IMG/VR virus record: IMGVR_UViG_3300013131_003315
Span: 1 to 22,423 of that record
DNA: 22,423 nucleotides
Origin: a virus
Strand: one strand, 5' to 3'
How positions within the stretch are numbered: the stretch's first letter is position 1; each line of letters opens with the position of its first letter. Positions 4,486 to 22,070 of the stretch are shown here, piece by piece. Both the position numbers and the translations under genes were made by a program. The notes beneath the pieces were generated by a model. It was not told where the DNA came from. It ran no database searches and was given only the letters and a program-made list of their open reading frames with translations.

Positions 4486-4500
4486 TATGCATAGTGCATA
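4486..4500. promoter_or_regulatory. Junction hairpin motif, copy 1 (TATGCA/TGCATA)
   Basis: Perfect 6-bp inverted repeat TATGCA-TAG-TGCATA with a 3-nt loop in an AT-rich gap. It sits 9 bp after the stop of the upstream gene and 22 bp before the next ATG. The 18-mer GTGCATATTTTATTTATT at 4494-4511 recurs exactly at 14030-14047. A related hairpin lies at 19883-19901. Function unknown: promoter, RNA-processing or protein-binding site are all possible. Confidence 0.55.
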
Positions 4501-4509
4501 TTTTATTTA

Positions 4510-5376
4510 TTACGCAAAAGCAGCAATTACAGGAACAATACTACTGATACCAGAAAACACTGTACTAGCGCCTTCCATAATTCTAGACGGAGCTTCTGGA
4601 ATAACCGCAGCACCGTTGAGCGAGCTAACTGCTTTGGCATAGTTAAGCTGTGCTTTTGACTCCCACAAAAGATCTTCTGATTCCACGCTAAGCTGCATGG
4701 ACTGATGTTGAACCTTGGCTTTGACATAAAAGTCTGCCAGCGTGATGGTCTGCTGCGTGAACTGTACCATAGTAGCCAGTTTAACACGCTCAGAATCCAG
4801 CCTAGTTCTGACTGCCTCGTATACACGTGCAAGATTCTCTGACTTTAGCTTGGCCTCAATCTCATCTATGCCACGTTGTGCTTCTGCTTCCAGTAGTGCA
4901 ATATAAATCAGGCGAGCGCTAGAATTGACAGTATTGTACGCAGTAAACCTAGCATTTAGCTTAGCAACAGACTCCAGCAAGTCAGTGTCTTTCCTGTTCT
5001 TAACTGCAGTAAGGACGTCAGAAGTTTCCTGGTTAGTATTACTTGTCACTACCGACATCGTGTCTGCAAAACTATTACTAAAAGATTGCTGTGCATCATA
5101 AGCCTGCAGAGCTTCTTCTAGCCGTCTGACAGAATTAACTGCCGTATGCAGCGGGGACTCCGGTGCAAGAGGGTCCCAAAGAGGAAAGTCAGTGTATGGA
5201 TTATCTCCAGAGGTGAGCGCTGCTGTCACTCCACGCATACCTGAAGTGCTGGCCGTATAAGTATCCCCTAGAAACCAGTCGACAACACCCCCAGGGGGAT
5301 CCCAAGTACCCCCACTAATCATATACGCATATTCAGTCAACTGCGCATCGCTAAAATTAGACGGTGTTCCACCCAT
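4510..5376 (-). CDS. Putative internal virion / tail-associated helical protein
   Basis: 288 aa. The ATG lies 1 bp after the stop of the upstream gene, whose last codons provide a GGGAGG ribosome binding site. Residues ~80-255 are almost continuously helical and charged (ERVKLATMVQFTQQT and similar), and residues ~270-288 form a hydrophobic C-terminus. A mostly helical protein directly after the tail genes resembles T7 gp14-type internal virion protein B in size class and position, but I see no diagnostic sequence motif. It probably forms part of the internal core or the ejected channel. It is followed by the first intergenic gap of this stretch, so it may end a translational block. Confidence 0.5.
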   Translation of the reverse strand: MGGTPSNFSDAQLTEYAYMISGGTWDPPGGVVDWFLGDTYTASTSGMRGVTAALTSGDNPYTDFPLWDPLAPESPLHTAVNSVRRLEEALQAYDAQQSFSNSFADTMSVVTSNTNQETSDVLTAVKNRKDTDLLESVAKLNARFTAYNTVNSSARLIYIALLEAEAQRGIDEIEAKLKSENLARVYEAVRTRLDSERVKLATMVQFTQQTITLADFYVKAKVQHQSMQLSVESEDLLWESKAQLNYAKAVSSLNGAAVIPEAPSRIMEGASTVFSGISSIVPVIAAFA

Positions 5377-5377
5377 A

Positions 5378-5833
5378 TTAAACCTCCCAGACTACGGTCG
5401 TAGCCAGTTTACCGCCAAGAGTATCTGCGATCTTTGAAATAGATTCAAGCTCAGTGTAAGCAATAATCTGCCTGCACCCAGCAGTAGCCGCTTTGATCTT
5501 TACAAACTCCATTCCCTCACGGACCAACTCAGGCGTCATGTTATGCAGGGCAGAAAACGTATATATAACCATTATCTGATTCTCAGTAATAGCATCCCCC
5601 GTTTTCATAACAGACATAATAGCAGTCAAATGCTCATCGCCATTAGACTGCACTCTAAGCCCAATATAAACCGTAAGGATTCCCTTCATAATGGCAGAAA
5701 TGATATTCCCTCTGAGACGCTCATTAGTAACAGGGCTCAGGGGAAGTGCGTGTTCAATGTAATGCAAGATAAAATTAGAGCTAGCAGTCTCAGGTGGAAG
5801 CTCTAAGAAATGATTTCCAGGTGATAGTTTCAT
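5378..5833 (-). CDS. GNAT-like (acetyltransferase-fold) small protein
   Basis: 151 aa, starting in an ATGA overlap with the upstream tail gene. The middle and C-terminal halves show the GNAT order: a strand (TVYIGLRV), a second strand (HLTAIMSV), a strand near ~90-95 (MVIYTF), an MTPELVREGMEFVKIKA helix, the strand QIIAYTEL, then the ESISKIADTLGGKL helix typical of the last part of the fold. The acetyl-CoA pyrophosphate loop (R/Q-x-x-G-x-G/A) is not obvious. It may therefore be a catalytically inactive virion protein, in the way T7 gp13 occupies the same place between tail and internal core genes. Fold assignment is by eye and moderate; enzymatic activity is not established. Confidence 0.45.
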   Translation of the reverse strand: MKLSPGNHFLELPPETASSNFILHYIEHALPLSPVTNERLRGNIISAIMKGILTVYIGLRVQSNGDEHLTAIMSVMKTGDAITENQIMVIYTFSALHNMTPELVREGMEFVKIKAATAGCRQIIAYTELESISKIADTLGGKLATTVVWEV

Positions 5834-7401
5834 TGCTGCGCTTCCTGTCCTTGAGCCTCAACCCCAATGCCGCGGTCGTAACGTTTATCTGTCTCCTGAT
5901 AATGCACTATGGCATCCCATAGCGCGCTATCCACAGTAGCAGTACCAGACAACACAAGATTAGCCTCAAGGTATTGTCGTCCAAGGTATACAACTCCCTC
6001 TTTGTTTGGGCTAAGCGCTGCAGATGTTTTAAAACTGTCAGTATGTTTATATCGATACTTCAACTTAGCTGTTAGGTCTGTGATACCACTATAAAACAAC
6101 TGCACATGCTGCGCTTGCTTCAACATTCTACGACGTCTATCGCTCAGTCTAATCTCAACTACAATGTCCGCAGGCTGAGATGAGGCATTAGTATACGTCT
6201 TATCAGCGTCGTAAAATATATCTCCAGCCAAGCACCCATCAGTGCTAAATTTACCAAGCCTAGAGAGCTTATAAGCAACGGCCCCATCCTGCAGGAAATA
6301 AAAATCTCCAAGTCGATCGTCGTAACGTACCTTGAATTTAGCCGCACTAATGCGAGGAAGCAAGAACTCACTAAAATCATATTCAGTAAATTCTAAACTT
6401 CCGCTAGCAAGCCAAGCAGAGCCGCTCTTGTCAACAAAACAGGCAGAGGCAAAGCTACCATCGAAAGCTGCCCTAGATGCGACCGGAGCGCCAACTAACA
6501 ACGTATAAACTGGCCCCTGCGCAGTCAGCTCAAACGCACCAACCCCACGGCTAGTATATATAAGCATCTTTCCCATCATTTCAGTAAAGCCTAGAATCTT
6601 TCCGCCCCAGGGAACCCGGCACAAAAGTATCTGCCTATCACGAATAGCATTATGCAGGATTTGCATAAACTCACTAGCACGGTATTCAGTGAGTAGGCAC
6701 ATTTCCAAAGAGTACGGGATATCCATAGCACCCCCGCCTGGCATTCCCAAGATAAACATACTCTCATCTATCACATCCACAGACTGCACAAGCTCATAAT
6801 CATATGAGTATTTTTTAAGCAGCTCCCAGGATGTTGCCCACGCGGAAGAGTCCAAGATAGTCTTTGTAGTACTTAGGTTTCCTACTACCAGTCTGGTGTT
6901 ATATTGCCCAAGTGCCTGCGGAATCCAGCCATCTGCAGATTTCGCAACCGCCAGACTAGGATATAAACTATAATTCGTCGCTAGGAACTCTCCATTACTG
7001 AAGACGACATTTCCTAAATGCCCCACCCACTGCACTTTAGCATAAGACTTAGCAGGGCTGACGCTTCCAGTCCCCGTTGACATGTTAATCCCAGCGCCGG
7101 CAGTGAACTGATTACTACCCTGTGCCCAGGTTTCTCTATCAACCAGGTAAAGCATAGCCTGATCACTGCTGTTGAAATTCAAAACAACCAGCTCTTCACC
7201 GTCCATAAACTGCATGTGAGTTTGTGTATTCTCACTTTCTGTGAACGGTATAACAGACAGCGCATCACGCACCAGGCCATCCTTTGAAGGAGTCAATCCA
7301 GTACAGGCTTCAAGCGTCTGAGTATCAGTCATAGCATACTTAGTCTGGCGCACACCAGCAAGCAGTGCTTCTCTGACACTATATGAGTACTGATTTGCCA
7401 T
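5830..7401 (-). CDS. Tail protein, third of three tandem paralogues (tail tube/nozzle type)
   Basis: 523 aa, joined to the preceding paralogue by a TAATG overlap. It is beta-rich throughout, without signal peptide or coiled coil. The block with VPWGGKILGFTEMMGK followed by MLIYTSRGVGAF (centred near residue ~280) aligns with equivalent blocks in the two genes upstream (IPWEGVIYSMKSLGKD and NWKGKIHCIKELGDG). This pattern of short strands, an aromatic/glycine turn and a Y-(T/G)-x-x-G-(V/I) strand suggests a propeller-like tail protein such as T7 gp12 or P22 gp10. That is inference from size, beta content and position after the adaptor. The C-terminus (GQEAQQ) lacks the GKLGL ending of the other two copies. 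Confidence 0.6.
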   Translation of the reverse strand: MANQYSYSVREALLAGVRQTKYAMTDTQTLEACTGLTPSKDGLVRDALSVIPFTESENTQTHMQFMDGEELVVLNFNSSDQAMLYLVDRETWAQGSNQFTAGAGINMSTGTGSVSPAKSYAKVQWVGHLGNVVFSNGEFLATNYSLYPSLAVAKSADGWIPQALGQYNTRLVVGNLSTTKTILDSSAWATSWELLKKYSYDYELVQSVDVIDESMFILGMPGGGAMDIPYSLEMCLLTEYRASEFMQILHNAIRDRQILLCRVPWGGKILGFTEMMGKMLIYTSRGVGAFELTAQGPVYTLLVGAPVASRAAFDGSFASACFVDKSGSAWLASGSLEFTEYDFSEFLLPRISAAKFKVRYDDRLGDFYFLQDGAVAYKLSRLGKFSTDGCLAGDIFYDADKTYTNASSQPADIVVEIRLSDRRRRMLKQAQHVQLFYSGITDLTAKLKYRYKHTDSFKTSAALSPNKEGVVYLGRQYLEANLVLSGTATVDSALWDAIVHYQETDKRYDRGIGVEAQGQEAQQ

Positions 7402-8951
7402 TAATACTCTCCAAGACCTAGCTTACCGTCATCTTCATGGAAGATTGCATTGATGTAACGAACATTCTCAGAATCAGCTGTTTCCTCTTCCACTCTGATT
7501 CGATGATCCAACGCTGTTACCATATGATCTACAATACCAGCCGCAGTAAAATCAACGGCACTAGTGTTACCCCACGTCGTGCCTCCCAATGACTTAAAGA
7601 AAACCTGAGAGCTAACATTAGTAAGAGTCTTTTTACTAATCTCAACAGCCTCAAGTGTCTTATTACCACGAGTATCAAGGTCAATCTCGCCGCTCTCAAA
7701 AATAAACTTAGCATTACCGCCGTCAATATACGTGGCATACAGATCATTCGCTTGACTGATGACGCTAAGAATCTGATAGCGCGTTTTGCACAGCCGATCC
7801 TCTTTTGTGAGAAGATAGCCTTCGTCATTATCTGCAAGATAAAACTCATGTCGAATGTCATCGTGACTGATAACCATATCCTCTCCAAGCAGTCCAGAAA
7901 GATGCTCCTGAAACCTACGCTCACCAATCTGCGGGCCAGGAGTAACGGTTCTCAGCCAGCCGCGAGAGTCTAGAAACACATGCTTTCGATTATCCCCTGC
8001 TACAGCAGAGCCACTAGCAAGACCGATGTTTAGCAGTAGTTCAGGATAATAGATATTCGTATCTACCTGGCGCAGGACGCCAATTCCCTCAGAACCATAG
8101 ATCATCATGTCTTTTCCGAGAGATTTCATTGAGTAAATCACCCCTTCCCAGGGAATGAAGCAAAAACCCATCTGCCAGCGACGGCAAGCACTGATAACAA
8201 GCTCTCGAACATCAGCGGATTTATACCCCGTCAAAGCCACCATTTCAGCCGTAAAGGGCTTAGAACTTTCACCGCCACCCTCTAGTCCCCAGATAATACA
8301 CCGAGCATCAGGGACATTATCCTCGTTAGTAAGAATCTGATTCGGAGCATTGATGTTCCACGTATCCCAGAGATCAGCCCCAAATCCACTTGAGAAATAC
8401 GTACCAGAATGATTGAAGTTTGCCATAAACAGACGATTATCATGGATGGCAAAACTCTTAGGAACAGGCACATCTGCAGGCAGGCCTGCTGCCCAGGAAT
8501 TGTACAGGGCATGGTTTGTCATATAGACGTTACCATTAGAGATAAACCAGTAACCATCCCGTTCTGCATATTGCCAAGAAGTACCAGTAGCAATTGTCTT
8601 AGACGTACTGTCATCAGTAACGCTAGGAAGCGTGTTCGAGGACAAAAGATCAGATCCAGGACCCCACGAACCATTGAGAGCGTATAGCTTATGCGAGCTG
8701 CTATTATACTTCAACAGCATATTTCCCTTAGTCCCCTTCAGGAGCATAGGCAACGGATACGTCACGTCTTGACTAATCCCACCAGTTACAGGATAACTTG
8801 GAGCCTCTATAGGAACTGCCCCTCGCGTCGGAGACGGCTTCTTTCCAAAATACTCCTTTGCTCCCAAGTCAGGAGGATCATTCTCAAACTCACGTAGACC
8901 AAGAGCCAAAGCCTGCTGAAGTTGATACTTAACCTGATTCCTGCGTGCCAT
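7401..8951 (-). CDS. Tail protein, second of three tandem paralogues
   Basis: 516 aa. It begins in a TAATG overlap with the first paralogue and ends in the same kind of overlap with the third. Shared landmarks are IPWEGVIYSMKSLGKD with MMIYGSEGIGVL, then an AVAGDNRKHVFLDSRG strand pair equivalent to AVAGDIFEHCFIDENL in the first copy. The last residues, DGKLGLGEY, mirror NGKLGLSGRL of the first copy. It is beta-rich and probably part of the short tail tube or nozzle below the adaptor. The N-terminal ~25 residues (QVKYQLQQALALGLREF) are helical, unlike the first copy. Confidence 0.6.
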   Translation of the reverse strand: MARRNQVKYQLQQALALGLREFENDPPDLGAKEYFGKKPSPTRGAVPIEAPSYPVTGGISQDVTYPLPMLLKGTKGNMLLKYNSSSHKLYALNGSWGPGSDLLSSNTLPSVTDDSTSKTIATGTSWQYAERDGYWFISNGNVYMTNHALYNSWAAGLPADVPVPKSFAIHDNRLFMANFNHSGTYFSSGFGADLWDTWNINAPNQILTNEDNVPDARCIIWGLEGGGESSKPFTAEMVALTGYKSADVRELVISACRRWQMGFCFIPWEGVIYSMKSLGKDMMIYGSEGIGVLRQVDTNIYYPELLLNIGLASGSAVAGDNRKHVFLDSRGWLRTVTPGPQIGERRFQEHLSGLLGEDMVISHDDIRHEFYLADNDEGYLLTKEDRLCKTRYQILSVISQANDLYATYIDGGNAKFIFESGEIDLDTRGNKTLEAVEISKKTLTNVSSQVFFKSLGGTTWGNTSAVDFTAAGIVDHMVTALDHRIRVEEETADSENVRYINAIFHEDDGKLGLGEY

Positions 8952-10366
8952 TATAATCTCCCTGAAAGCCCTAGCTTTCCGTTTCTTTCATACTCGACAA
9001 AAAGAGAAGTATATGAAGGCGTACCAGAGCCGGTACGCTCTACCTCTATTTGAAACTCAATTGCGCTGATCATGAACTCAGCATAACCAGTTGCGTCTAT
9101 AGTCACCCAGCTGCTGGTTGATATAGACACCAGAGATGAGTCTCTATACCTAAGACGTACCCTAGATTCGACAGTCGTTCCTAGGCGAACCCCAACGACA
9201 AGTTTATGATCCCGGCTCCCCATGTCAAAAAAGCCAGTAGTGAATTTCTGCACGCCAGAAGCTGAAGCCGAAGCTATCTTAATAAGACTTCCACCATGCA
9301 CAAACATAGAGCTGTAAGAAGCTGTAACTAGACTCAGCCCACTATCACTAAGGACTAGGCCAAAAACATCGTCGCAGAAAAAATAATTACGTTCAATTGG
9401 ATCAAACGTCCCGACAATGCTATCAGTAAACCCTGTGGTATAGTCATCATAGAGAGGCTCACTTATCTTAAGATCTGGGGTTATTTTTCTAATCTTAAGA
9501 TTCTCGTCTATGAAACAATGCTCGAATATATCCCCTGCGACAGCACCGCGCTCAGCAATCCCATAGCTGGCTAGATCTACGCGAGACAGGGCAATAGGAC
9601 TCTCCTCGAATTTTACAAAAGCAATACCACTCTCGCCGTATACAACAGCTCCATCACCGAGTTCTTTAATACAATGAATCTTTCCCTTCCAGTTCATAGG
9701 AAGATATCCAGCTTCATTATTTTGAAAATACTGAGTTAGGAGTTCTTTATTGAAAGTCCCGAACAGCAAGTGAAAGAAGTCCATAATATCAGCGCTGGCA
9801 TAATACAACATGTTTTCCTCAAGAGAAAACGATGAGTAATCACCGTGGCTAACTCTAAGAGAATTTATATTATCAGCTGATGCAGAGGAAATAAAAGACG
9901 CCATACCGCCCGCTAAAAGTCTGCCCTTTAGAGTGCCAACAGTATTAGGGGCATTATCAGTAGTGATAATATCAGCACCACTAATAAGCATAGAATTACC
10001 ATTGCAGGCAACCCACAAATCTCCAATCATGGCGGTATGCCACACCCCACCTGCGGTTGGGGAAGCCGGGTTACCTGAAGTATCAACAACACTAGCAGAT
10101 GTCAGCGCCCATGTTGACGGATTAGCTGTGAACACTGTAGTCGTGCCTAGTGCAAATATCTCATTGAGAGACACTAGAGTCTGAGGATTAGGCCACGTAC
10201 CAAAAACAGTATAACCACTTCTAGTAAAATCATAATAGCCTAGCCCAAAAGGACATACTTTTACATCCTGTGCAGACGCTAGATAGTCCGCAAACAGAGA
10301 ATTCTCGGGTTTAACGTTAATCCCCCGAGTTAGGCTTTTTGTCAGATCCAGAATCTCTCTGGGCAT
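8951..10366 (-). CDS. Tail protein, first of three tandem paralogues
   Basis: 471 aa. The ATG at 10366 has GAGG eight bases upstream and lies inside the end of the 59-aa gene, which overlaps it by 50 bp. Conserved landmarks are NWKGKIHCIKELGDG followed by AVVYGESGIAFV, then AVAGDIFEHCFIDENL and a final NGKLGL motif. N-terminal sequence ILDLTKSLTRGINVKPE resembles the opening of many podovirus tail proteins that begin by docking onto the adaptor. Overall a beta-propeller-like tail component is likely; T7 gp12 and P22 gp10 are the functional comparisons. Divergence between the three copies is large, so the duplications are old or rapidly evolving. Confidence 0.6.
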   Translation of the reverse strand: MPREILDLTKSLTRGINVKPENSLFADYLASAQDVKVCPFGLGYYDFTRSGYTVFGTWPNPQTLVSLNEIFALGTTTVFTANPSTWALTSASVVDTSGNPASPTAGGVWHTAMIGDLWVACNGNSMLISGADIITTDNAPNTVGTLKGRLLAGGMASFISSASADNINSLRVSHGDYSSFSLEENMLYYASADIMDFFHLLFGTFNKELLTQYFQNNEAGYLPMNWKGKIHCIKELGDGAVVYGESGIAFVKFEESPIALSRVDLASYGIAERGAVAGDIFEHCFIDENLKIRKITPDLKISEPLYDDYTTGFTDSIVGTFDPIERNYFFCDDVFGLVLSDSGLSLVTASYSSMFVHGGSLIKIASASASGVQKFTTGFFDMGSRDHKLVVGVRLGTTVESRVRLRYRDSSLVSISTSSWVTIDATGYAEFMISAIEFQIEVERTGSGTPSYTSLFVEYERNGKLGLSGRL

Positions 10367-10496
10367 CTTCTAGTCCTCGTAGTAGTCTATTTGCGGCCAG
10401 CTTAGATAGTTCACGTTCTTTTGCTTCCTGCGCAGCACTCTGAAATCGCAGTGCGTTTAGCTGTCTGAGAGCTTTAAGGTTATCTTTTACTTTCAT
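10317..10496 (-). CDS. Small basic helical protein (59 aa) in head-to-tail block
   Basis: The ATG at 10496 forms an ATGA overlap with the stop of the adaptor gene, and GAGG lies just upstream. The frame then runs 59 codons to TAA at 10317, overlapping the next tail gene by 50 bp. It begins MKVKDNLKALRQLNALRF and is one long charged, alanine- and leucine-rich helix up to ~residue 47, with a polar tail. It fills what would otherwise be a 126-bp gap in a gene string that has almost none, and both its start and its neighbour's start are translationally coupled. Function unknown; a small virion or assembly helper is a guess. Confidence 0.7.
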   Translation of the reverse strand: MKVKDNLKALRQLNALRFQSAAQEAKERELSKLAANRLLRGLEDAQRDSGSDKKPNSGD

Positions 10497-11671
10497 CCTT
10501 GAATCCTCAGTGGGAGATTATCATCCCATTCCCGCTCTATTTGATCTTTTTCAAGCTCGTTAAGTCGTTCCTCAAGCTGACGTTTGTACTCTTGCGCACG
10601 AGTTTCATTGTTATAGCTGCGCTCAAGTTCATAGAGAGTGGCAAGCACTAGACAGTCAAAGAATTCTTCAGAAGTCCAACGGTTAGTCTGACTGTCAGAG
10701 ATAAGCCTAGGTTCGTAGAAAATGCCAACAATCTGCAGTTTATAGTAACTGTCCGCAGGAGGAAGAATCAACAACTCTCGGCCGGCTAGGCTAGTATTAA
10801 CAGTAATGCTATCTATCGTCCCTGCTGCTGTTGCTGAAAACCTGAAGTTAATAGTTGCCGGGGGAGAGAAAGACGGAGTATTACCCTCTGAAGCACCGAA
10901 GAGAAATAGGCAGTTCCAGGGCTGCGTCGGAGTGAAGCTATAAGTACCGCTGCCTGTTATAATAGCCTGACTGGAGTCAATTGCAGTATATGCTGAGCCG
11001 TTCCAGTATGCGGTCATGATGGCCAGGCTGTCTACTGTCGGAGCGCAATCTATAACCAGCTCTACAGCACCGTTAAAAATCTGATTCAGATTCACTCCCA
11101 TTGCTATGGTAGAAGATAGACCATCAGGCACGTAGGTTAACTGGCCGCCAGAGTGGCTCCAAGACGCACTCTTAGAGACGTGCCAGATTTTAGTAGCTGC
11201 AGCTAACAGCGTGCCGCCAGAAGCTCCGGTCAAGTCAAGGTCAGTTTCAACTGGCGCAGAAGTCAGGGGGAGGAGTCTAATCTCATTAGAAGCTAAGCTA
11301 GACGTCAAATGACACCAGTACTTAGGCTCTCCCTGAGCTTCTTGTGAATACTCCATGGTGAAAGTATCTTCTAGCTCTCGGAATGTTACTTTATCCAAAG
11401 GATAAGTAGTACCGTCGCTCTTAAAGGCCTTAACATAAGAGAGGCTTCGAAGGTTATCTACAGCTTTAGAGAACTGTCCTTGCGTGATGTTAATTACTCT
11501 ATGCTCATCCCGCTTAGTCCACGCCGCGAGGTTCTCCAGAAGCCTCTGTCCCTTATGAATGAAACGAACTATTCCATTATCGGAATAGTCATCAGCGTCA
11601 AAGTCAGTTACTAGATCAGCTCTACCGCTGATTTTAACGACCTCAGTTGAGACATCTAAGCGTGTGTACAT
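10493..11671 (-). CDS. Head-to-tail adaptor (tail tube A / gp11-type) with inserted beta-sandwich domain
   Basis: 392 aa, starting in a TAATG overlap with the preceding gene. Residues ~30-140 and ~298-392 look like the two halves of a podovirus adaptor: IVRFIHKGQRLLENLAAW near the start, and later RWTSEEFFDCLVLATLYELERSYNNE with a closing charged helix. That last pattern is typical of connector-binding tail proteins such as T7 gp11 and P22 gp4. Between them, residues ~142-298 form a serine/threonine/glycine-rich beta stretch (GTYSFTPTQPWNCLFLFG) resembling a jelly-roll or carbohydrate-binding module. Flanking pieces LLPLTSAP and LILPPADS look like the two sides of one original strand. The protein sits between the capsid and the tail paralogues, as expected for an adaptor. 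Confidence 0.62.
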   Translation of the reverse strand: MYTRLDVSTEVVKISGRADLVTDFDADDYSDNGIVRFIHKGQRLLENLAAWTKRDEHRVINITQGQFSKAVDNLRSLSYVKAFKSDGTTYPLDKVTFRELEDTFTMEYSQEAQGEPKYWCHLTSSLASNEIRLLPLTSAPVETDLDLTGASGGTLLAAATKIWHVSKSASWSHSGGQLTYVPDGLSSTIAMGVNLNQIFNGAVELVIDCAPTVDSLAIMTAYWNGSAYTAIDSSQAIITGSGTYSFTPTQPWNCLFLFGASEGNTPSFSPPATINFRFSATAAGTIDSITVNTSLAGRELLILPPADSYYKLQIVGIFYEPRLISDSQTNRWTSEEFFDCLVLATLYELERSYNNETRAQEYKRQLEERLNELEKDQIEREWDDNLPLRIQG

Positions 11672-12204
11672 TAGATGTCCCTCTTAAGAAGAGTTATAGT
11701 CACATTAGCCGAGCCCGCCGCATCTCCCGGCGCCGGAGAAGTAGTCAGAGAATTTCCAGTCTTAGCTGTGACAGCATATTCCCCATTATTTGCTGCGGCT
11801 CCGGGACTGTCCACATAAATGTAATCATCTACGGCAAAAGAGGAAAAGGAGACAGAATCGTCAGCATAAAACTTTCCGTCTAAGTTATCTGCCTCAATCT
11901 CAGTTAAGGAAGCTCTGCCAGGCTTTACCACAATCCGGTAGTTAAAGTTAATATCCTCATACGTGCCATCCGTCGGATCCAGAAGTTTCTGTGCATCTGC
12001 TGCCTTTAGTTCAGCAGAATCCAGGAAGTCTTGTATCAACCTGAAATACTCCGGATACGTCATCGTCATGTCTTTGGCATACCTAGCCTCAACTTCTTGC
12101 GCTTTACCAACCAGGGCTATAGCGTCCTGAACCCAGTCACGCGCCTGCCCTAGCCGCTGCTTGATAACATCAAGCGTCTGTGTCGCATCTATTGCTACTG
12201 CCAT
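11671..12204 (-). CDS. Small head/neck protein with C-terminal beta domain, unknown function
   Basis: 177 aa, ATG preceded by AGGAG seven bases away. Residues 1-75 are helical (LDVIKQRLGQARDWVQDAIAL). Residues ~100-177 form a small beta barrel-like unit (FAVDDYIYVDSPGAAANNGEYAV), a pattern seen in many phage head-associated proteins. It follows the capsid gene after a structured 118-bp gap and runs directly into the adaptor gene. Likely a minor head or neck protein. I do not recognise the family. Confidence 0.5.
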   Translation of the reverse strand: MAVAIDATQTLDVIKQRLGQARDWVQDAIALVGKAQEVEARYAKDMTMTYPEYFRLIQDFLDSAELKAADAQKLLDPTDGTYEDINFNYRIVVKPGRASLTEIEADNLDGKFYADDSVSFSSFAVDDYIYVDSPGAAANNGEYAVTAKTGNSLTTSPAPGDAAGSANVTITLLKRDI

Positions 12205-12322
12205 GTTAAAACTCCTGCGCTGCGGAGGCTATGAGGGATGAGTGCGGTGTGGGGTGTAGGCGGGAGCCACACTCTCTTTTTGGGGGGAAAGATTCCACTC
12301 ATAACCTCCGCAGCAAAGTTAA
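12205..12322. other. Structured intergenic region after the capsid gene
   Basis: Only substantial gap within the late genes (118 bp). Arms GCTGCGGAGGCTATGAG (12219-12235) and CTCATAACCTCCGCAGC (12298-12314) pair over 17 positions with one G/T difference. GTGTGG (12247-12252) and CCACAC (12267-12272) nest inside. On the minus strand this lies between the capsid stop and the next start. There is no U-run, so it is not a standard intrinsic terminator. It could be an attenuator, an RNA-processing or stability element, or a terminator for a phage polymerase, as T7 has after its capsid gene. Confidence 0.6.
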
Positions 12323-13618
12323 CTAAACCAGGTTGTCCTGACCAAGTCCCTTGAAGTATGCAAACTCAATCGGCTTGCTATACTCAAGGCCAGTTTCAGT
12401 GAGATACCCTTCTTTGATACCATCAACATTCGTCGAGGTATCTTTAGTGACAGTAGTGTTCTGAAGCGCCATCTCCTGCAGGTTCGCCATGTCGAACAGA
12501 ACCATGCTGGAGCGGTCAGTCGTATCCTGGCTGAAAAGAGGATGCGTCATGAGATTCAAGCGCATACCATTCGGAGAGCGCCAACGCTCAATATCAAGAC
12601 CGTACTCTGCCGTATCCGGCTCGATGTAGATATAAGCATTAGCAAGGCCCAGCTTCGTGAAAGACATACGCGCCACAGAGCCGAGAGCAGCACTACGCGT
12701 GGGCTTTCCGTAACGGCCTACGATTTCCAGCTTTTCCGTCAGCCAGTCAAGGCCACCCTCTTCCCAGGTCTGACCGCTAAAGTCAGTGTCATAACGGTAA
12801 TCAAAAACATGCGCATCGGCGTATTCCAGAATCATGGGAATAATGCCCTGCGTATAGGTCTTTTCCTTACCGTCGACAGTTTCCTTATACCGCTCACCCC
12901 ACCAGAAGGCTTTTTCCATCTCAACGCCGTGAATCTCGCTCTTCTCCCGGCGCTCTTCCTTCAGCACGTCACCAGTCAGAATCTCAGTCTGAGTCTGCGT
13001 ACGCGTGACAGAATAGGGCGTCCAGAAGATCTGAGTGTAGTTATACAGCTCAGTCGAGTTGTAGTTCACAATGCCAGGGATGGTCGAGCCTTGTTCCTGC
13101 GCATTACCGATTACCTTGATAAGGTTAGCCGCAGCCGGGTCAGTCGTCGTGGTAGTGGTAGCCTTCAGCGTCTTGACTTCAATATAGCTGTTAGCACCAT
13201 TCTCACTCACGCTAAGCACAACGCACGGCGTGTCATCACGAGGATCAGCAGAGTTACGGAGCATAACTACATGGTTCGGGCGGAACTCCAACGTCGAGCG
13301 GTCAGTCTGCGTATTGTCAACCTTCACAAACAAACGAAGACCGATGGCGTTAGAGCCCGCAGCATACGCAGAGCTAAGACCAGCGTCAGTGTACACATCC
13401 GTGACAGCGGCAATCTGACACGGAAACGTCTTAGTGTAATGCGAGAAGCGCGTGTCTTTCGGCTTCTTCGTTTTCATCATACCAAGCATAGCCGTCAGAG
13501 GCAGGTCACCGTTGATATACTGATAAGTCAGCCCTTCACGGGGATTCTGCGGACGATTATTAGCTTCCCACGTGGTAGTATGACGTACTCCACGAGACGC
13601 GGGGATGATTGTAACCAT
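12323..13618 (-). CDS. Major capsid protein, SU10-type (DUF5309-like)
   Basis: 431 aa, ATG preceded by AAGGAG. The stretch LYNYTQIFWTPYSVTRT at ~191-207, the K-x-x-x-IHG-x-E-(K)-AFWWGER region at ~227-243, and SMVLFDMANLQEMALQ in the C-terminal part match the SU10-type (DUF5309) family pattern, which has an HK97-like fold. Usual length of the family is about 300-450 aa, so this copy is normal. Position after scaffold and a small decoration-like gene supports the call. Composition is threonine-rich around ~152-160, giving a repeated codon run. Strong Shine-Dalgarno and the structured region just downstream fit a highly expressed gene. Family call from remembered motifs; fold by inference. Confidence 0.8.
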   Translation of the reverse strand: MVTIIPASRGVRHTTTWEANNRPQNPREGLTYQYINGDLPLTAMLGMMKTKKPKDTRFSHYTKTFPCQIAAVTDVYTDAGLSSAYAAGSNAIGLRLFVKVDNTQTDRSTLEFRPNHVVMLRNSADPRDDTPCVVLSVSENGANSYIEVKTLKATTTTTTDPAAANLIKVIGNAQEQGSTIPGIVNYNSTELYNYTQIFWTPYSVTRTQTQTEILTGDVLKEERREKSEIHGVEMEKAFWWGERYKETVDGKEKTYTQGIIPMILEYADAHVFDYRYDTDFSGQTWEEGGLDWLTEKLEIVGRYGKPTRSAALGSVARMSFTKLGLANAYIYIEPDTAEYGLDIERWRSPNGMRLNLMTHPLFSQDTTDRSSMVLFDMANLQEMALQNTTVTKDTSTNVDGIKEGYLTETGLEYSKPIEFAYFKGLGQDNLV

Positions 13619-13630
13619 TGTTATCTCTCC

Positions 13631-13990
13631 TTATACCGTTACGTCAGCGATAACATACAGATGCAGACCGTCACTATAAACAGCAACACGGTCGTCAGCA
13701 GCTGCAATGTTATCTCCAACAATGTCCGTTCCAGCCTGGTTTACAACCTGAATAGCTCCACCACCGCCCCCACCAGAATTCTCCATGATTGTAATGATTC
13801 GGCCAGCAATATCTCGCGCATGAGGCATTTTAACCTTGCCCGTGCCGCTGCCAGGAACGGTAACCTTCACAATCGTCGCAGTTACGTCGATATCAGCAGT
13901 CTCAGTATTCGCAGGGGCAAGATACTGCTCAATGAACTGCTGCAACGGATTGTACTGCGAACCCGCATTAAATCCAGGAATGCTTTGCAT
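13631..13990 (-). CDS. Small decoration-like capsid protein
   Basis: 119 aa. GGAG lies nine bases before the ATG. The N-terminal helix (NPLQQFIEQYLAP) is followed from ~residue 35 by beta strands (DIDVTATIVKVTVP) and a six-glycine turn at ~73-78 followed by AIQVVNQAGTDI. It ends in DGLHLYVIADVTV. Proteins with this glycine-turn beta pattern next to a capsid gene are often capsid decoration proteins or head fibres. It sits between scaffold and major capsid, separated from capsid by 12 bp. Assignment is from context and composition; no defining motif. Confidence 0.5.
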   Translation of the reverse strand: MQSIPGFNAGSQYNPLQQFIEQYLAPANTETADIDVTATIVKVTVPGSGTGKVKMPHARDIAGRIITIMENSGGGGGGAIQVVNQAGTDIVGDNIAAADDRVAVYSDGLHLYVIADVTV

Positions 13991-14017
13991 TTCTTAAGTC
14001 TCCGTTGGGTTGTATAT

Positions 14018-14040
14018 AAAATATGCGCTGTGCATATTTT
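14018..14040. promoter_or_regulatory. Junction hairpin motif, copy 2 (AAAATATGC/GCATATTTT)
   Basis: Perfect 9-bp arms AAAATATGC and GCATATTTT with a 5-nt loop. Read as TATGCG/TGCATA it has a 3-nt loop with one G-T pair, like copies 1 and 3. It lies 8 bp after the scaffold stop and 27 bp before the next ATG. The 18-mer at 14030-14047 is identical to 4494-4511. Confidence 0.55.
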
Positions 14041-14048
14041 ATTTATTC

Positions 14049-14816
14049 CTAGTCTCCGATGAGATCCTTCATGACTTCTGCCATAAAATCATCCTGAGCC
14101 TTAGCGGGCAAGCGGCCGCCAGTCTTTCCAGCAAACGCCGGCGTGGAGGTAGCCTCTTTACCATTCAGATCCCTTGGGCGCTTCAAAGCCTGACGAACAG
14201 CCGCCTCTAGCATTGAGGGCTTCCCTTCTCCGGCTGGCATAAACAGCTGCTCATAAGTAATGTCAGGCTTCTCCGTGCTCAGCTTCACTGCCGTAGCCTG
14301 GATGAAATCAGTCATATCACGAAGGTCACGATTTGAGTCAAAAAACTGTGCTACCATTGCCTGCTTGCGGGCACGATCATTAATGATCGGCTTGACTACC
14401 CCAGGGAGTTCCTGCAAAAGCTGTTCCCGAGCAACCGCAACAGCCTGCTTCATTACGTTGTTTGCAAACGCATTTGCGCTCTCAACAGAAGCAAACGTCT
14501 CGTTAAACTCATCTTCGCTCTTGAAAAACTCTACCGGCTTGATCTCCGCAGCTTTCGGCGCACCTTCCTCCGGCGCTTTCTGCAACTGCAACTGGCTGAC
14601 TACCTTTGCCATATCTGCCAGCTGCCGCTTAAGCGCCTCTACCTCACTGACTTCTTCCTCAGAACCTTCGGCTTGATCCTCTACAACAGGATCTTCCGAT
14701 ACAGGCTCTGCGATTTCAGCGGCAGGAGACTCAACTTCCTGCTCTTGGTTATCCGCCACGTCTGACTCATAAGAGGGGTCAAACGCTGACATGAGTTCCC
14801 TAGTTTCCTGATCCAT
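14049..14816 (-). CDS. Capsid scaffold / assembly protein
   Basis: 255 aa from the ATG at 14816, chosen because AGGAG lies seven bases upstream; an ATG at 14837 would add seven residues without a good site. The N-terminal ~70 residues are very acidic (EEEVSEVEAL), followed by a coiled coil at ~64-85 (LKRQLADMAKVVSQLQLQ), a helical middle, and a lysine/arginine-containing helical C-terminus (KAQDDFMAEVMKDLIGD). An acidic start with a helical, basic-tipped C-terminus placed before the capsid gene is the usual scaffold layout (T7 gp9-like role). It overlaps the preceding gene by 17 bp. Confidence 0.72.
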   Translation of the reverse strand: MDQETRELMSAFDPSYESDVADNQEQEVESPAAEIAEPVSEDPVVEDQAEGSEEEVSEVEALKRQLADMAKVVSQLQLQKAPEEGAPKAAEIKPVEFFKSEDEFNETFASVESANAFANNVMKQAVAVAREQLLQELPGVVKPIINDRARKQAMVAQFFDSNRDLRDMTDFIQATAVKLSTEKPDITYEQLFMPAGEGKPSMLEAAVRQALKRPRDLNGKEATSTPAFAGKTGGRLPAKAQDDFMAEVMKDLIGD

Positions 14817-15084
14817 CTTCATTCTCCTCTTGTTCAAGACTTTCCGCCATTACCTGAAAGGCTCCCAATGCCTTACGAAATCCATCTAGCTGACCTCTGG
14901 TGAATTCTACATTCTCACCCTGGAACTCAAGGCTATCCCTGCCGCTGGTTATACACAGCTCCATGAATATGGAGAAGTCACTATATATAGGCGAACGCAT
15001 GAACTCTCTGTGAGAGCTAGCGCTAGCTCTAAACTTTAGCTTCCCGTCTACCAGGGCCAGCTTAAAAGCATCATCTTTAAGCAA
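14800..15084 (-). CDS. Small protein between portal and scaffold, unknown function
   Basis: The frame has no ATG near its beginning. The best start is TTG at 15084 with AAGGAG nine bases upstream, overlapping the portal stop by 8 bp and giving about 94 aa. An earlier TTG at 15126 would overlap the portal gene by 50 bp. The protein starts LKDDAFKLALVDGKLKFRA, has a middle beta/alpha region and an acidic C-terminus (QEENEDGSGN). It may be a minor head protein or an assembly helper, since small genes in this place are common in podoviruses. Not recognised. Confidence 0.5.
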   Translation of the reverse strand: MLKDDAFKLALVDGKLKFRASASSHREFMRSPIYSDFSIFMELCITSGRDSLEFQGENVEFTRGQLDGFRKALGAFQVMAESLEQEENEDGSGN

Positions 15085-17020
15085 GAGGAATAGCTCCTTC
15101 TGGGTTTCCAGCAACCATTCCAGCAATAGCTTCCGGCGAGGCCTCTTGAATTACAAAACGCTCCGCGTTGACTTCTCCAGCACGATACATGACCGTGAGA
15201 AAGAGCTTCAGAAAGTCTACCCTGCTGGCCAAGATTGGATTACCACCTGCAAGCTCCATAGCCTTAAGGATGGCATCAGGATTATTATGCGCCGGAACTT
15301 TATCAAAGCTGCTTTGGACGTCATAATTCACGTTCATATCTGCCGGGCTAATGTTTACGCGACCCCGCTGAATCAGATCACCATAGCCAAGCTCTATCAG
15401 CTTTTGCTGTGCTCCACCATTGATCTTTACCCACGACGCCTGACTTGCGAGCTGAATAGTCTGACTTGCAAGCATCCTAGCCAGCGGTCGCATTGCCATC
15501 GCATACGCCATGCGAATAGTCTTATTTGTACGGCCCATGGATGAGTCACGAGTCTCACTAAACTCCTTCGCAGTACGCCGCTCAGGAGCATCAGGATCAA
15601 ATGCCCCCTGCGTGCCACCACCACCATTCCCGACATACTCCATGATTTTCATCATATACTGGCTGTCTACAACGTTACCGCGAGTAATATCTGAGGTTTT
15701 CATCTGCTCCATAGCACCTGCAACACCTTGTCCCCAAGTGCTACGACGCGTACGAATAAGGCCGCCAGCAGAACTCATCATTTTAATAGCATCATTGATG
15801 TTTACACGGAACGGATCAATGAGATAAGTATTATGCAACGTCCGATCAATGTTGGAAAAATGAGAAGAAATTAGCTTATCTACTCTGATCTGAGACGGGT
15901 ACAAGAGCTCCATACGAGAAATGGGTGCCATAGAATAGCCGTCAAAATCAGGAGCAAAGACTACAACAGGGAACAGCTCATGCGCAAGGCCCAGGGGCTG
16001 CCCCATGATAATCACAGAATCGTTGGCTACTGCAAAGGTCCAGATTTCAGGATATCTGTCACCGCCAGGAAGTCCCCACTCTTTAGGGATAAGCTTGACG
16101 TACATGTACATCACATCAACAGGGAAGTTAGCCTCTGTATAATGTGAATCGCTTGGAGCAGTTCCACCCGTTGCTTCATATCGACCGCTGTTATCTTCCA
16201 TCAGCGCTGAGCGGCTCTTTGCATAGTCCAGGTATTGCGCGTTGAAAAACTGTCCGTCAGAATTATGCTCACGATCCAGGAGCTCAATGCGGCTAGTGGT
16301 ATCTATCCAGCCGACAAAAGAGCCTTTTTGAATATTATGTCCGGGCGCTCCAGGATCGGGAAGATAATGATACGGATCAACATTTATAAGCTCATGCCCC
16401 TCCCAGGTAAGAGCACGCTCTACAGACCTACGCTGGCCCATCTTAGTCGGACCAAGAAGGCTATCAGCCGTTAGGTCTTCAAATACCAGCTTATTGCCGT
16501 ACTTCCTATGATACATAGGCGCAATAACACCTAGACCGTAGGTAAGGCCATCTTTGACCGCCGTGTGCAACGGCAGCTCTGCGCTGGTATATTCCATCTG
16601 CTGCTGGATATGCCGCTCCAGCAAGATGGCCCCAAGCTCATCTTCCGGTCCAATACCCTCAAGGGGGAAGAAAGTGTCAGTCATCAGGCCATAGACAAAC
16701 TGCGTCAAGAGGCTCTCGCGAATACTGAAACTGGTTGGGATAACCAGCTTGACTTCGTTATTCTCAGTATCCGGCGGACAAAAAGCAGTTTGACTATGGT
16801 CTATCTTTTTCCAAGAAGGATATCTGCCTGACATTGCGTTACGAGAAACATAGCCATTTTCAAGCAAACGAGTAATGGTATTCTGATGCAGCTCGGTGTC
16901 CGGATGCCAGTTAATGCGGCTATTCTCGACAACAGGATATTTATACTTATGATCCTTCTTGCCGATATTAGCACGAATCTGTCGTGCTCTATTAACTGCG
17001 CCTTGTACTAAGAGTGCCAT
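15077..17020 (-). CDS. Portal protein
   Basis: 647 aa, with the ATG one base after the large terminase stop and GAGG just upstream. It is a long mixed alpha/beta protein. SIRESLLTQFVYGLMTDTFFP near residues ~100-120, DGLTYGLGVIAP, and a long helical region at ~460-560 with RMAYAMAMRPLARMLASQT fit a podovirus portal (head-tail connector) by length and layout. Those proteins form the twelve-fold ring at the capsid vertex, through which DNA is packaged by the terminase. A GNGGGGTQGAFDPDA loop at ~465-480 is glycine-rich and probably exposed. The gene lies directly after large terminase and before scaffold and capsid, the standard position. Confidence 0.75.
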   Translation of the reverse strand: MALLVQGAVNRARQIRANIGKKDHKYKYPVVENSRINWHPDTELHQNTITRLLENGYVSRNAMSGRYPSWKKIDHSQTAFCPPDTENNEVKLVIPTSFSIRESLLTQFVYGLMTDTFFPLEGIGPEDELGAILLERHIQQQMEYTSAELPLHTAVKDGLTYGLGVIAPMYHRKYGNKLVFEDLTADSLLGPTKMGQRRSVERALTWEGHELINVDPYHYLPDPGAPGHNIQKGSFVGWIDTTSRIELLDREHNSDGQFFNAQYLDYAKSRSALMEDNSGRYEATGGTAPSDSHYTEANFPVDVMYMYVKLIPKEWGLPGGDRYPEIWTFAVANDSVIIMGQPLGLAHELFPVVVFAPDFDGYSMAPISRMELLYPSQIRVDKLISSHFSNIDRTLHNTYLIDPFRVNINDAIKMMSSAGGLIRTRRSTWGQGVAGAMEQMKTSDITRGNVVDSQYMMKIMEYVGNGGGGTQGAFDPDAPERRTAKEFSETRDSSMGRTNKTIRMAYAMAMRPLARMLASQTIQLASQASWVKINGGAQQKLIELGYGDLIQRGRVNISPADMNVNYDVQSSFDKVPAHNNPDAILKAMELAGGNPILASRVDFLKLFLTVMYRAGEVNAERFVIQEASPEAIAGMVAGNPEGAIPLA

Positions 17021-17021
17021 G

Positions 17022-18626
17022 TTATACCTCTACCAGACGACATTCAATGTCAAGTGCTGGTTCGTCGTAGATTCCTGCGTACTCATCTTCGTCGGTATGC
17101 TCAATGTCAGTGCCCTTTTCACTGGGCGCCGGAAGAAACAAACGATTGCCCTCTGACAACATCTGTGTGATATATGCAAACGCGTCAGCTACGTCGTCGT
17201 ACTGAGAGGACGGAAAGTCCATGAGCTGCATTTCAAGCGGCGCACAGGTGTTCTTGTTATGAAACACATAACCACGGCGATAATACGGGACCAGCGTTTT
17301 GATCCTATCCTCTTTTTTCATCTTCGGCTTAAGCACTATGCGATCAAGAAAATTATAGCCGCGAACAGCAATCTCAGTTTGAAGGGGATAGTCTATGAAT
17401 TCATTGAGGCTATTCAGCTCAATACCAAAGACCTTTACTCCATACTGATCAACCAGCTCAAAGAACTTGTCATAAAGCTCATCTGGGTACATACGCTCAT
17501 TGACAATGTCTCTGACAAACAAGCGACGATTTTCAAGATCAATCCCGATTACGACCATTGCGGAGAAGTCACTCTGCGGAGTAACAGTCTTAGCTGGGTC
17601 GATTAGAATCACAGTCTCAAGGCGCTCAAGGTTGACTCTGTCGGGGATAGCCATACCACTGGCCTGGAACAGGCGACCATCTGATTCATTGTAGAAGTTA
17701 AAATGCTCAGCTCGAAAGCTAGCAATCTCAGGCGGCATGGTCTTATTCATATATTCGCGATAGAAAACGTCCAAGGAGCCGTCGAGAAGATACTCATTGT
17801 ATTTCTCTTTAATTTCCTCTGTGGACATAAGCTGCGGAATAAGACTGTTAAGATTCTCATCACAGATAGAGAAAGTATGACAATCCCAGCTATCCATTTT
17901 CTGCAAGTGAACAGGAAGTGCGTCGTGATGCTTGAGAGTGTCTACATAGAGAATCTCCCAATCCTTCCGCATCCGATTAACGCATTCTGTAACGTCACCC
18001 AGAAACCACTTCTTGGTCTTCTTTCTCTGCTCTTCATTAGGAAGCTCTTTCGGCTTCTCAGGGTCGTCAAGAGCTACCAGGTCTGGGCGGAAGTTATTCC
18101 AGTTAAGACCACGAATCTGCTGATCACAGCCGCGAGGAAGAATCAGCGTATGACCAAAAGCTACCCAGGCCTTCTTTGAAAACGATTCGTCTATCTCTGC
18201 GCTCTTACTAACCTCATAGTCGTAAGAGTCATTCTTGACGTTACCGCAGAATTTCTTGATGATCTTGTTTGTCAGAAGATCTCGTTTCATATTTTCAGTC
18301 TGCATCTCTGCCAAGGTCTCGCTGGCACTGACGTAGACAATAAAACGCTTGTTTGCGAAGATGATATCCATCATTAGGCGAAAGCGCAAGAGAGTAGTCT
18401 TTCCAAGCCCACGAGGAGCAAGGACTAGCTTTTTCTGTTTAGTGTAGTCAAAAAACAGATCTATAATCTGATCATGGATGGTAGAAAACGGCACGTCAAA
18501 AATATCCCCGAACAGCTCATACGCAGCGGTCTTAGGATCAGACATCCATTGCACCATAAGCTCTTCGCGAAGCTCAGGTGAGATGCCTTGACCGGCGCCA
18601 AGTGTTTCTATGGGGATTCTAGGCAT
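17022..18626 (-). CDS. Terminase large subunit
   Basis: 534 aa from the ATG at 18626, which has AAGAGG seven bases upstream and overlaps the amidase stop by 8 bp. An ATG at 18722 adds 32 leucine-rich residues that are only the amidase gene read in another frame. The ATPase half has Walker A APRGLGKT (70-77) and Walker B LVALDDPE (183-190). The nuclease half has LIDPA (D343), FGIELN (E403) and the acidic QYDDVADAF group (D477, D478, D481). These are the metal-binding positions expected of the RNase H-like nuclease. It drives DNA translocation and cuts genome ends, with the small subunit two genes upstream. Confidence 0.93.
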   Translation of the reverse strand: MPRIPIETLGAGQGISPELREELMVQWMSDPKTAAYELFGDIFDVPFSTIHDQIIDLFFDYTKQKKLVLAPRGLGKTTLLRFRLMMDIIFANKRFIVYVSASETLAEMQTENMKRDLLTNKIIKKFCGNVKNDSYDYEVSKSAEIDESFSKKAWVAFGHTLILPRGCDQQIRGLNWNNFRPDLVALDDPEKPKELPNEEQRKKTKKWFLGDVTECVNRMRKDWEILYVDTLKHHDALPVHLQKMDSWDCHTFSICDENLNSLIPQLMSTEEIKEKYNEYLLDGSLDVFYREYMNKTMPPEIASFRAEHFNFYNESDGRLFQASGMAIPDRVNLERLETVILIDPAKTVTPQSDFSAMVVIGIDLENRRLFVRDIVNERMYPDELYDKFFELVDQYGVKVFGIELNSLNEFIDYPLQTEIAVRGYNFLDRIVLKPKMKKEDRIKTLVPYYRRGYVFHNKNTCAPLEMQLMDFPSSQYDDVADAFAYITQMLSEGNRLFLPAPSEKGTDIEHTDEDEYAGIYDEPALDIECRLVEV

Positions 18627-19332
18627 TTTCAAGCCTCTTAAGACGTGTTTCAAATTCGGCCAAGGTTGCAAGTACGCCGGACTCAAAAGTCGGAGCTTCA
18701 ACAGGAGCCTTGGAAGTCTCAACGGCAGCTAGCACGGAAGCATAAAATTCAGCTGTAGGAAATGCCGGACCTGGATCTTGCTTGCGGCCCGGAGAGATGT
18801 CATCGTGACCAACAATGTCACTCAGGTTATAGGCAACATGAAGCGCCGCTGCAACCTCAGTGCAGACCTGTACCTGCACTCCAGTGTACTTCTCCCACCA
18901 GCCAAGCGGACCGCCGTTCTTATGCTTGCTCTGCATGCAGCGAGTGACTTCTAGCTGCTGCCCAGTCCATGTTCTCGGAGCGCCCTCTGCACCGCAGAAG
19001 CCCCAATTGACCATTTCAATGCCGATACTAAAGTCATTGCAGTTAGTCCGGCCCATGTAATTTGAAACGCCAGCATGATACGCTTTGCGATTAAACGGGA
19101 CCATTTGCGTTACGCTACCATTTGCGTCAATGCAAAGATGTGCGCTGACATAAACGGCATCCTTCAGGGTCAGATGCTTAATAGAGCCCTCGGCGCTACC
19201 GCTTGCAGTATAATGCATGACGAGAAGCTGCGGCGTGATCTCTCCGCCCATGTCTGCGGCGATGACCTGCTTGACAGGATTACCATCCTCATAAAGCAGG
19301 CCAGTTTTCTTATTCACCCAGAAGCCGTTCAT
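18619..19332 (-). CDS. N-acetylmuramoyl-L-alanine amidase (endolysin, Amidase_2)
   Basis: 237 aa, starting in an ATGA overlap with small terminase. Amidase_2 core at ~30-190: H40 (VMHYTASG), H176 (VGHDDISPG) and D186 (KQDPGP) are the expected zinc ligands, with K184 near the active site; AYHAG and IGIEMVN are family motifs. It cleaves the amide between MurNAc and L-alanine in peptidoglycan. The extra C-terminal ~45 residues end in a short coiled coil (LATLAEFETRLKRLEN) with no recognised wall-binding domain. There is no signal peptide, so it needs a holin; two small membrane proteins lie just upstream. It is unusually placed between the two terminase genes. Confidence 0.9.
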   Translation of the reverse strand: MNGFWVNKKTGLLYEDGNPVKQVIAADMGGEITPQLLVMHYTASGSAEGSIKHLTLKDAVYVSAHLCIDANGSVTQMVPFNRKAYHAGVSNYMGRTNCNDFSIGIEMVNWGFCGAEGAPRTWTGQQLEVTRCMQSKHKNGGPLGWWEKYTGVQVQVCTEVAAALHVAYNLSDIVGHDDISPGRKQDPGPAFPTAEFYASVLAAVETSKAPVEAPTFESGVLATLAEFETRLKRLENA

Positions 19333-19862
19333 CCCGCTGCCTCCCCGAGAGCTTTACTGACGTTAACCGACTCAGCCGCACGACGCTCTTTCGCCTTTTC
19401 CCTGATGCGAGCAAGCTCCGTCAGGTCAAGGCTAGTGTTCGTGCTAGTCTGCTCGACTTTCGTGTGCTTTCCGAAACCAACACGATCCAGAAGGCTCTCT
19501 GCAACCCTATGACGTTGCATAGGATTAGTAGCGACTTCTTTGGAGAGAATCTCGTGAAAGACAGCCGTAGCCTTAGGAAGTAAGTCTTCAAGCTCTTTTG
19601 CAGTCTTGAGAAAGATATCATCCCTGGTTTCATGCAGCTCATTCAAATGAGCCTTGCCCAACTCACTGCCAAGAACATTACTAATCATGAGCTGCGTCAT
19701 TCCCATCATCTGCGCAATCTCACCGGGCTTATGACCAATGGCCGCTAACCGCAGGATCTCTCGATGATTATCCTGCAGCTTTTGAATCTGGTACTTCCTG
19801 GATTTCTCTTCCAAGACAGCTGCGACTTCCAGCATATTCTCAGAATTCATTGCTCCAGACAT
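19329..19862 (-). CDS. Terminase small subunit
   Basis: 177 aa, ATG preceded by AAGGAA eight bases away. Residues ~33-65 contain a helix-turn-helix (REILRLAAIGHKPGEIAQM followed by MGMTQLMISNVL) of the type used to recognise packaging sites. A central helical oligomerisation region (~75-130) follows, then a charged C-terminus (ELARIREKAKERRAAE) that would bind the large subunit. It precedes the amidase and large terminase genes by overlap. A conserved junction hairpin lies 20 bp before the start codon. Confidence 0.8.
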   Translation of the reverse strand: MSGAMNSENMLEVAAVLEEKSRKYQIQKLQDNHREILRLAAIGHKPGEIAQMMGMTQLMISNVLGSELGKAHLNELHETRDDIFLKTAKELEDLLPKATAVFHEILSKEVATNPMQRHRVAESLLDRVGFGKHTKVEQTSTNTSLDLTELARIREKAKERRAAESVNVSKALGEAAG

Positions 19863-19882
19863 GGTTAGTGTTCCTTATATTA

Positions 19883-19901
19883 TTTATGCACCCTGCATAA
19901 A
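19883..19901. promoter_or_regulatory. Junction hairpin motif, copy 3 (TTTATGCA/TGCATAAA)
   Basis: Perfect 8-bp arms TTTATGCA-CCC-TGCATAAA with a 3-nt loop in an AT-rich gap. It is 3 bp beyond the upstream stop codon and 20 bp before the small terminase ATG. Stem core and loop length match copy 1; the loop differs. Confidence 0.5.
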
Positions 19902-21892: not shown

Positions 21893-21941
21893 ATATTTTT
21901 CCCCCCCTGTCTAGTACAATGGTACAGCCAGGCTAATAGAA

Positions 21942-22010
21942 TACTGTGACACAGAAACGTAGCGTACTATGACACAGAAACACAGTGTATTGTGACACAG
22001 AAACACAGTG
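21942..22010. repeat. Three contiguous 23-bp direct repeats (iteron- or operator-like)
   Basis: Units 21942-21964, 21965-21987 and 21988-22010 follow each other with no gap. All contain the invariant core TGACACAGAAAC. The first differs at its end (GTAGCG instead of ACAGTG in the other two). CTGTG-A-CACAG palindromes occur in unit 1. Spacing is about two helix turns, as for sites bound side by side by one protein. Confidence 0.9.
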
Positions 22011-22016
22011 CAAGTA

Positions 22017-22070
22017 TTGGCACGATACTTGCTACTAGCAAGAGTCATGCCCTAGCAAGTTTCGTGCCAA
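22017..22070. repeat. 18-bp inverted repeat in divergent control region
   Basis: TTGGCACGATACTTGCTA (22017-22034) pairs with TAGCAAGTTTCGTGCCAA (22053-22070) at 17 of 18 positions, separated by 18 bp. A smaller palindrome CTTGCTA-C-TAGCAAG (22028-22042) and CAAGTAT/ATACTTG (22011-22031) overlap it. Could form alternative hairpins or bind a dimeric protein. Confidence 0.85.

Follow-up and report, generated by a model that had tools for sequence, protein, structure and literature searches.

Gene content of the window and its recurring palindromes

The window (the whole stretch of DNA analyzed, a 22.4-kb virus contig) carries the late half of an SU10-like podovirus, as judged from matches to the large terminase subunit (TerL), capsid protein, SU10-type portal and adaptor, amidase and small terminase subunit (TerS). 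The portal and adaptor matches to PF23899 and PF24175 (8e-9 and 2.5e-9, respectively) are both above the cut-offs. Among named phages, the closest is the 44.4-kb Desulfofustis phage LS06-2018-MD01, with a TerL identity of 43%. All genes lie on the minus strand (Table 1).

Table 1. Palindromes and principal late genes of the window
Feature	Position	Strand	Basis
Palindrome copy 1, sense TATGCACTATGCATA	4486..4500	-	exact match; in 46-bp gap before gene 3885-4463
Palindrome copy 2, sense TATGCACAGCGCATA	14022..14036	-	exact on + strand, 1 mismatch on - strand; in 58-bp gap before gene 13631-13990
Palindrome copy 3, sense TATGCAGGGTGCATA	19885..19899	-	exact match; in 42-bp gap before TerS
192-aa gene downstream of copy 1	3885..4463	-	open reading frame; no PHROG match
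119-aa gene downstream of copy 2, just ahead of capsid gene	13631..13990	-	open reading frame; no PHROG match
TerS, downstream of copy 3	19329..19862	-	phrog_2538 (1e-4); homologues in relatives
Major capsid protein	12323..13618	-	phrog_1328 (8.5e-16)
SU10-type portal protein	15077..17020	-	PF23899 (8e-9)
TerL	17022..18722	-	phrog_38 (4e-60); tree placement

The pattern TATGC(A/G)NNNTGCATA occurs without mismatch at exactly three places in the window, all of them intergenic, and every copy differs by one base from the ideal palindrome TATGCACNGTGCATA. Copies 1 and 2 also have in common the exact 18-mer AATAAATAAAATATGCAC that had been noticed earlier. Four gaps between genes exceed 40 bp (46, 118, 58 and 42 bp), and three of them contain a palindrome. 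When gaps and genes of the window were dinucleotide-shuffled separately, an equally strong palindrome family arose anywhere in 2 of 200 shuffles, and a family of any kind with three members in gaps arose in none of the 200. A second contig, 99.8% identical to the window, has both of the copies that fall in its span. The recurrence of palindromes at gene junctions, which a first, sequence-only reading of this DNA had put forward, is confirmed as a real observation.

That reading had placed the copies 20-27 bp before the next start codon. The 15-bp cores of copies 1, 2 and 3 end at distances of 22, 31 and 22 bp, respectively, from the downstream ATGs (4463, 13990 and 19862), so that the range holds for copies 1 and 3 and fails for the core of copy 2, which comes within it (27 bp) when its longest stem, spanning about 14018-14040, is counted. 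The modules that it saw separated at these junctions (lysis from packaging, scaffold from capsid, tail-associated from internal proteins) were named partly correctly: copy 3 precedes TerS, copy 2 the 119-aa gene ahead of the capsid gene, and copy 1 the 192-aa gene.

Several other features were observed in the window. The fourth gap above 40 bp (12205-12322, directly after the capsid gene) contains a different, long hairpin (-51.9 kcal/mol, z -8.5), and the Desulfofustis phage has a hairpin in the same place (L020 25635-25684). This hairpin is perhaps an attenuator that boosts capsid expression, because its position matches that of the T7 terminator T-phi. The proteins encoded at 2863-3861 and 3885-4463 are probably duplicated virion proteins, since a related N-terminus (MKFSTGELMQLFANVAGATAKS and MELSPGELAQIFSNLAATTARS) is common to both. 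The C-terminal regions of three consecutive large proteins (523, 516 and 471 aa) encoded at 5830-10366 look similar, and the three may represent tandem tail-protein paralogues. A noncoding, origin-like or regulatory region upstream of the late genes (21937-22070) contains a 23-bp sequence in three tandem copies (GTGACACAGAAAC). It also has an inverted repeat of 18 bp (TTGGCACGATACTTGCTA / TAGCAAGTTTCGTGCCAA), both arms of which fit a sigma-54 -24/-12 consensus.

Palindrome arrays in related phages

The sequence-only reading had named a lack of further copies in the genome or in relatives as grounds for its refutation. The exact sequence is absent from the related genomes, which taken literally amounts to that refutation but overlooks the pattern at the level of the family, the relatives having versions of their own. 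Odd palindromes repeated 8-9 times were found in the Desulfofustis phage (GTCCCAANTTGGGAC) and in two further genomes, G014 (TGGTAAANNNTTTACCA) and G015 (GGTAAATNATTTACC). A scan for ParB-methylase genes returned 80 loci and added 29 further genomes above 40 kb to the four earlier ones. In 29 of these 33 genomes an odd palindrome reached a log score of at least 20, the shuffles scoring at most 18, and the remaining four had no clear odd palindrome. The palindrome is present in several copies per replicon, as is typical of ParB-, Noc- and KorB-type sites (three in the window and 4-31 in the relatives). In control phages, the search picked up the T7 promoters as a pseudo-palindrome and a local repeat cluster in G055; all other scores were weak.

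Site statistics were drawn from the 21 genomes with a palindrome score of at least 30 (297 sites). The sites are intergenic in 206 cases (16 expected), and they are spaced more evenly than if gaps had been chosen at random (Fisher combined p about 4e-24), with a coefficient of variation mostly of 0.23-0.63 compared with about 1 for random choice. In the relatives, sites are present in 37% of the tandem gaps, in 36% of the convergent ones and in 17% of the divergent ones; some lie inside genes, and they cluster 20-35 bp before start codons. The sites are not promoter-like, because they are equally common in convergent and tandem gaps. The adjoining genes vary; TerS is the commonest neighbour of four tested (13 of 25, 3.1 expected). 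The central bases of the palindromes are symmetric even where a hairpin loop could not pair. These figures come from a simple gene caller and include some closely related genomes, and AT-rich motifs (e.g., G037 and G043) may include false sites.

Distant ParB-methylase-like proteins are also encoded by Microcystis phage Mel-JY34 (L228 11543-12838) and Vibrio phage VS-ABTNL-3 (L229 28578-29954), in which recurring palindromes are weak. These two phages may lie at the point where the array was acquired or disappeared.

The ParB-methylase fusion protein

All 33 surveyed genomes encode a fusion of a ParB CTPase domain, a helix-turn-helix (HTH) domain and an N6/N4 DNA methylase. The N-terminal CTPase domain, seen first in the Desulfofustis phage, G014 and G015, carries the GGRR and ENxxRK motifs. 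An AlphaFold model of the fusion (mean pLDDT 87) matches the structures of Noc, ParB and KorB as well as those of N4/N6 methylases. The C-terminal half is the methylase, and the C-terminal dimerisation domain of ParABS proteins was not found there. A ParA partner (PF13614) scored above the cut-off in none of 13 relatives, with one partial weak match in G031, and was found in the N15 control; given the absence of ParA by this model, the system is not a standard partition system.

ParB-CTPase/N6N4-methyltransferase fusions are described as frequent in phages in one report, which also suggests a possible anti-defence role (PMC12704722); its passages on the fusions name no binding sites, and no palindrome terms appear in the paper. 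The article on the Desulfofustis phage yields no match for ParB and treats palindromes in the context of CRISPRs. Dispersed parS-like arrays for a phage ParB-methylase were not found reported in the open-licence literature, and earlier reports may exist elsewhere.

Covariation of the HTH domain and the palindrome

Mantel tests were carried out over 33 non-redundant genomes and loci with 2000 permutations. Palindrome distance tracks HTH distance when the methylase domain is controlled (partial r = 0.38; p = 0.0005, the lowest value attainable with this number of permutations) and when both other domains are controlled (r = 0.34, p = 0.0005). Once the HTH is known, no signal is added by the methylase domain (r = 0.02, p = 0.44) or by the ParB-N domain (r = 0.06, p = 0.26). 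An informative position of the recognition helix is residue 146 (Desulfofustis phage numbering), which pairs with base 6 from the dyad as follows: H with G (5/5), P with T (6/6), K with T (9/10), Q with A (3/4) and D with A (2/3). Residue 146 is the first residue of the recognition helix in the AlphaFold model and corresponds, by gapless alignment of the GKSR/GKSQ segment, to R173 of Caulobacter ParB and Q158 of Noc. In those proteins, recognition of the outermost base of the core half-site falls to this residue: R reads G and Q reads A (PMC7383237).

On held-out loci with strong motifs from a later scan, the residue-146 rule gave base 6 correctly in 10 of 12 cases and wrongly in two. In a tree built without the HTH, the H-G pairing arises in about four places on the best tree; a phylogenetic sign test on independent pairs had just two pairs on well-supported branches and hence low power. 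In the relatives, the specificity residue of the HTH appears to determine the outer half-site base, and predicted binding of the ParB-methylase to the palindromes is well supported at the level of the family.

Relation of the window to the ParB-methylase phages

The window, which covers only half a genome, does not contain a ParB-methylase gene. In the TerL tree it falls among the ParB-methylase phages on a long branch. Its best TerL match is G039 (44%), the palindrome of which is also the most similar: the half-sites ATACA (G039) and ATGCA (window) have the same register and the same 3-bp centre, base 6 is A in both, and residue 146 of the G039 protein is Q. At base 7 most relatives have G and the motif of the window does not; by itself, the similarity of this motif to the family falls short of significance (p = 0.15). 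In L291, another ParB-methylase phage, TATGCA half-sites flank a 5-bp centre. A search for the missing half did not find the window motif among the loci of two ParB-methylase scans. We infer that the window palindromes are bound by the phage's own ParB-methylase, the membership of the window in this group resting on inference because the gene would lie in the missing half.

A DNA search with TATGCANNNTGCATAAATAAWA returned mostly AT-rich phages that are unrelated; there the palindrome forms the end of the preceding coding sequence, and these matches were taken as chance. A search with the 18-mer returned four other contigs, in which no palindrome recurs.

Interpretation of the palindromes

The best explanation is that the window palindromes are parS-like sites belonging to a genome-wide, roughly even array that serves a phage protein of the ParB CTPase-HTH-N6/N4 methyltransferase type, with a probability of about two in three. 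By analogy with ParB-parS and Noc-NBS, a dimer would span the dyad, each of its two HTHs reading one half-site (ATGCAC in the window). The clamp would then close upon nucleotide binding and slide off the site, as in ParB and KorB (PMC12704722, PMC11790492). The sliding clamp would carry the methylase along the flanking kilobases, and with evenly spaced sites the entire genome could be reached. The purpose would presumably be methylation of the flanking DNA. A tentative extension, which we consider possible and rather speculative, is that the methylase is processive: loaded at the array, it would slide both ways and methylate all phage DNA soon after replication, thereby protecting it from restriction.

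The same palindromes could be operators at which the ParB-methylase or another dimeric phage regulator represses or times the downstream genes, like KorB operators or stoperators, and the earlier reading was right to leave a protein-binding (repressor-type) site open. The concentration of sites 20-35 bp before start codons is what operators would give, KorB, a relative of ParB, silences genes from near and far operators (PMC11790492), and one site of the Desulfofustis phage directly precedes a gene annotated as a transcriptional regulator. However, divergent gaps are not enriched (17% as against 36-37% elsewhere), convergent gaps are occupied equally, the neighbouring genes change among relatives and the spacing is too even for a gene-by-gene regulon. 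Operators are therefore considered unlikely; even spacing and the lack of promoter bias fit genome-wide loading better than control of single genes.

Readings at the level of RNA or transcription fare worse. Elements that process, stabilise or attenuate late mRNA as RNA hairpins are very doubtful: the predicted stems are modest (-4.4, -10.4 and -7.5 kcal/mol for copies 1, 2 and 3, respectively), and copies 2 and 3 do fold better than shuffles (z -4.8 and -3.3), but copy 1 is weak (z -1.7), the sense RNA of copy 2 has an A-C mismatch, and conservation in the relatives does not stop at the loop but reaches the dyad, a pattern that base pairing in RNA cannot account for. The least probable reading, with hardly any weight left, is that of N4-like hairpin promoters used by a polymerase of the phage or its virion, which the sequence-only reading had raised. 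The short stems, the 3-nt loop and the position upstream of genes resemble such promoters, but in the relatives sites also lie in convergent gaps (36%, against 37% of tandem gaps) and inside genes, the centre is symmetric, and base identity follows the ParB HTH. The check for an encoded polymerase returned no T7-like enzyme by PF00940 in 13 relatives, the T7 control being found, which weakens this reading, although the model may miss N4-type enzymes.

Two further candidates were rejected. Intrinsic terminators do not agree with the AT-rich stems (-4.4 to -10.4 kcal/mol), which are followed by an A-rich stretch and a start codon and have no G+C-rich stem with a T run. A T4-like or sigma-factor late promoter was considered in view of CATAAATA in copies 1 and 3 and abandoned, since this element is missing from copy 2.

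If parS-like loading of the ParB-methylase is right, it would represent a new use of the ParB clamp, the delivery of an enzyme along DNA, and a new way for phages to modify DNA, which may mark or protect it. When the ParB-methylase fusions of phages were catalogued in 2025, they had no known target; the present analysis adds candidate binding sites and a residue-to-base rule that is testable by one mutation.

Comparison with known systems

The promoters of the N4 virion RNA polymerase consist of a short stem with a 3-nt loop. The phage sites differ in being genome-wide and strand-neutral, and no polymerase was found in the relatives (PF00940, 13 genomes). In phage N15, too, a ParB reads inverted repeats dispersed over the phage genome. 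The same palindrome finder located four sites in N15, which we take to be its known dispersed centromere sites. N15 differs in having four sites, a ParA partner (which was found) and the lifestyle of a plasmid prophage.

KorB of plasmid RK2 is likewise a ParB-type clamp with several sites per replicon, near and far from promoters (PMC11790492), and its structure is also matched by the fusion model. KorB is a repressor with the partner KorA and has no methylase, whereas the phage sites are without promoter bias. The ParB-parS and Noc-NBS systems are alike in the ParB CTPase fold with an HTH, in palindromic sites and in the specificity residue (ParB 173) that reads the outer half-site base (PMC7383237). 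NBS sites are scattered around the bacterial chromosome (PMC4331003), as the phage sites are along the genome. The phage sites differ from both in being odd-length and in occurring once every few kilobases over the whole genome, and the phage protein has a methylase replacing the C-terminal domain, with no ParA found. The domain architecture of the phage protein is that of the described phage ParB-CTPase/N6N4-methyltransferase fusions (PMC12704722).
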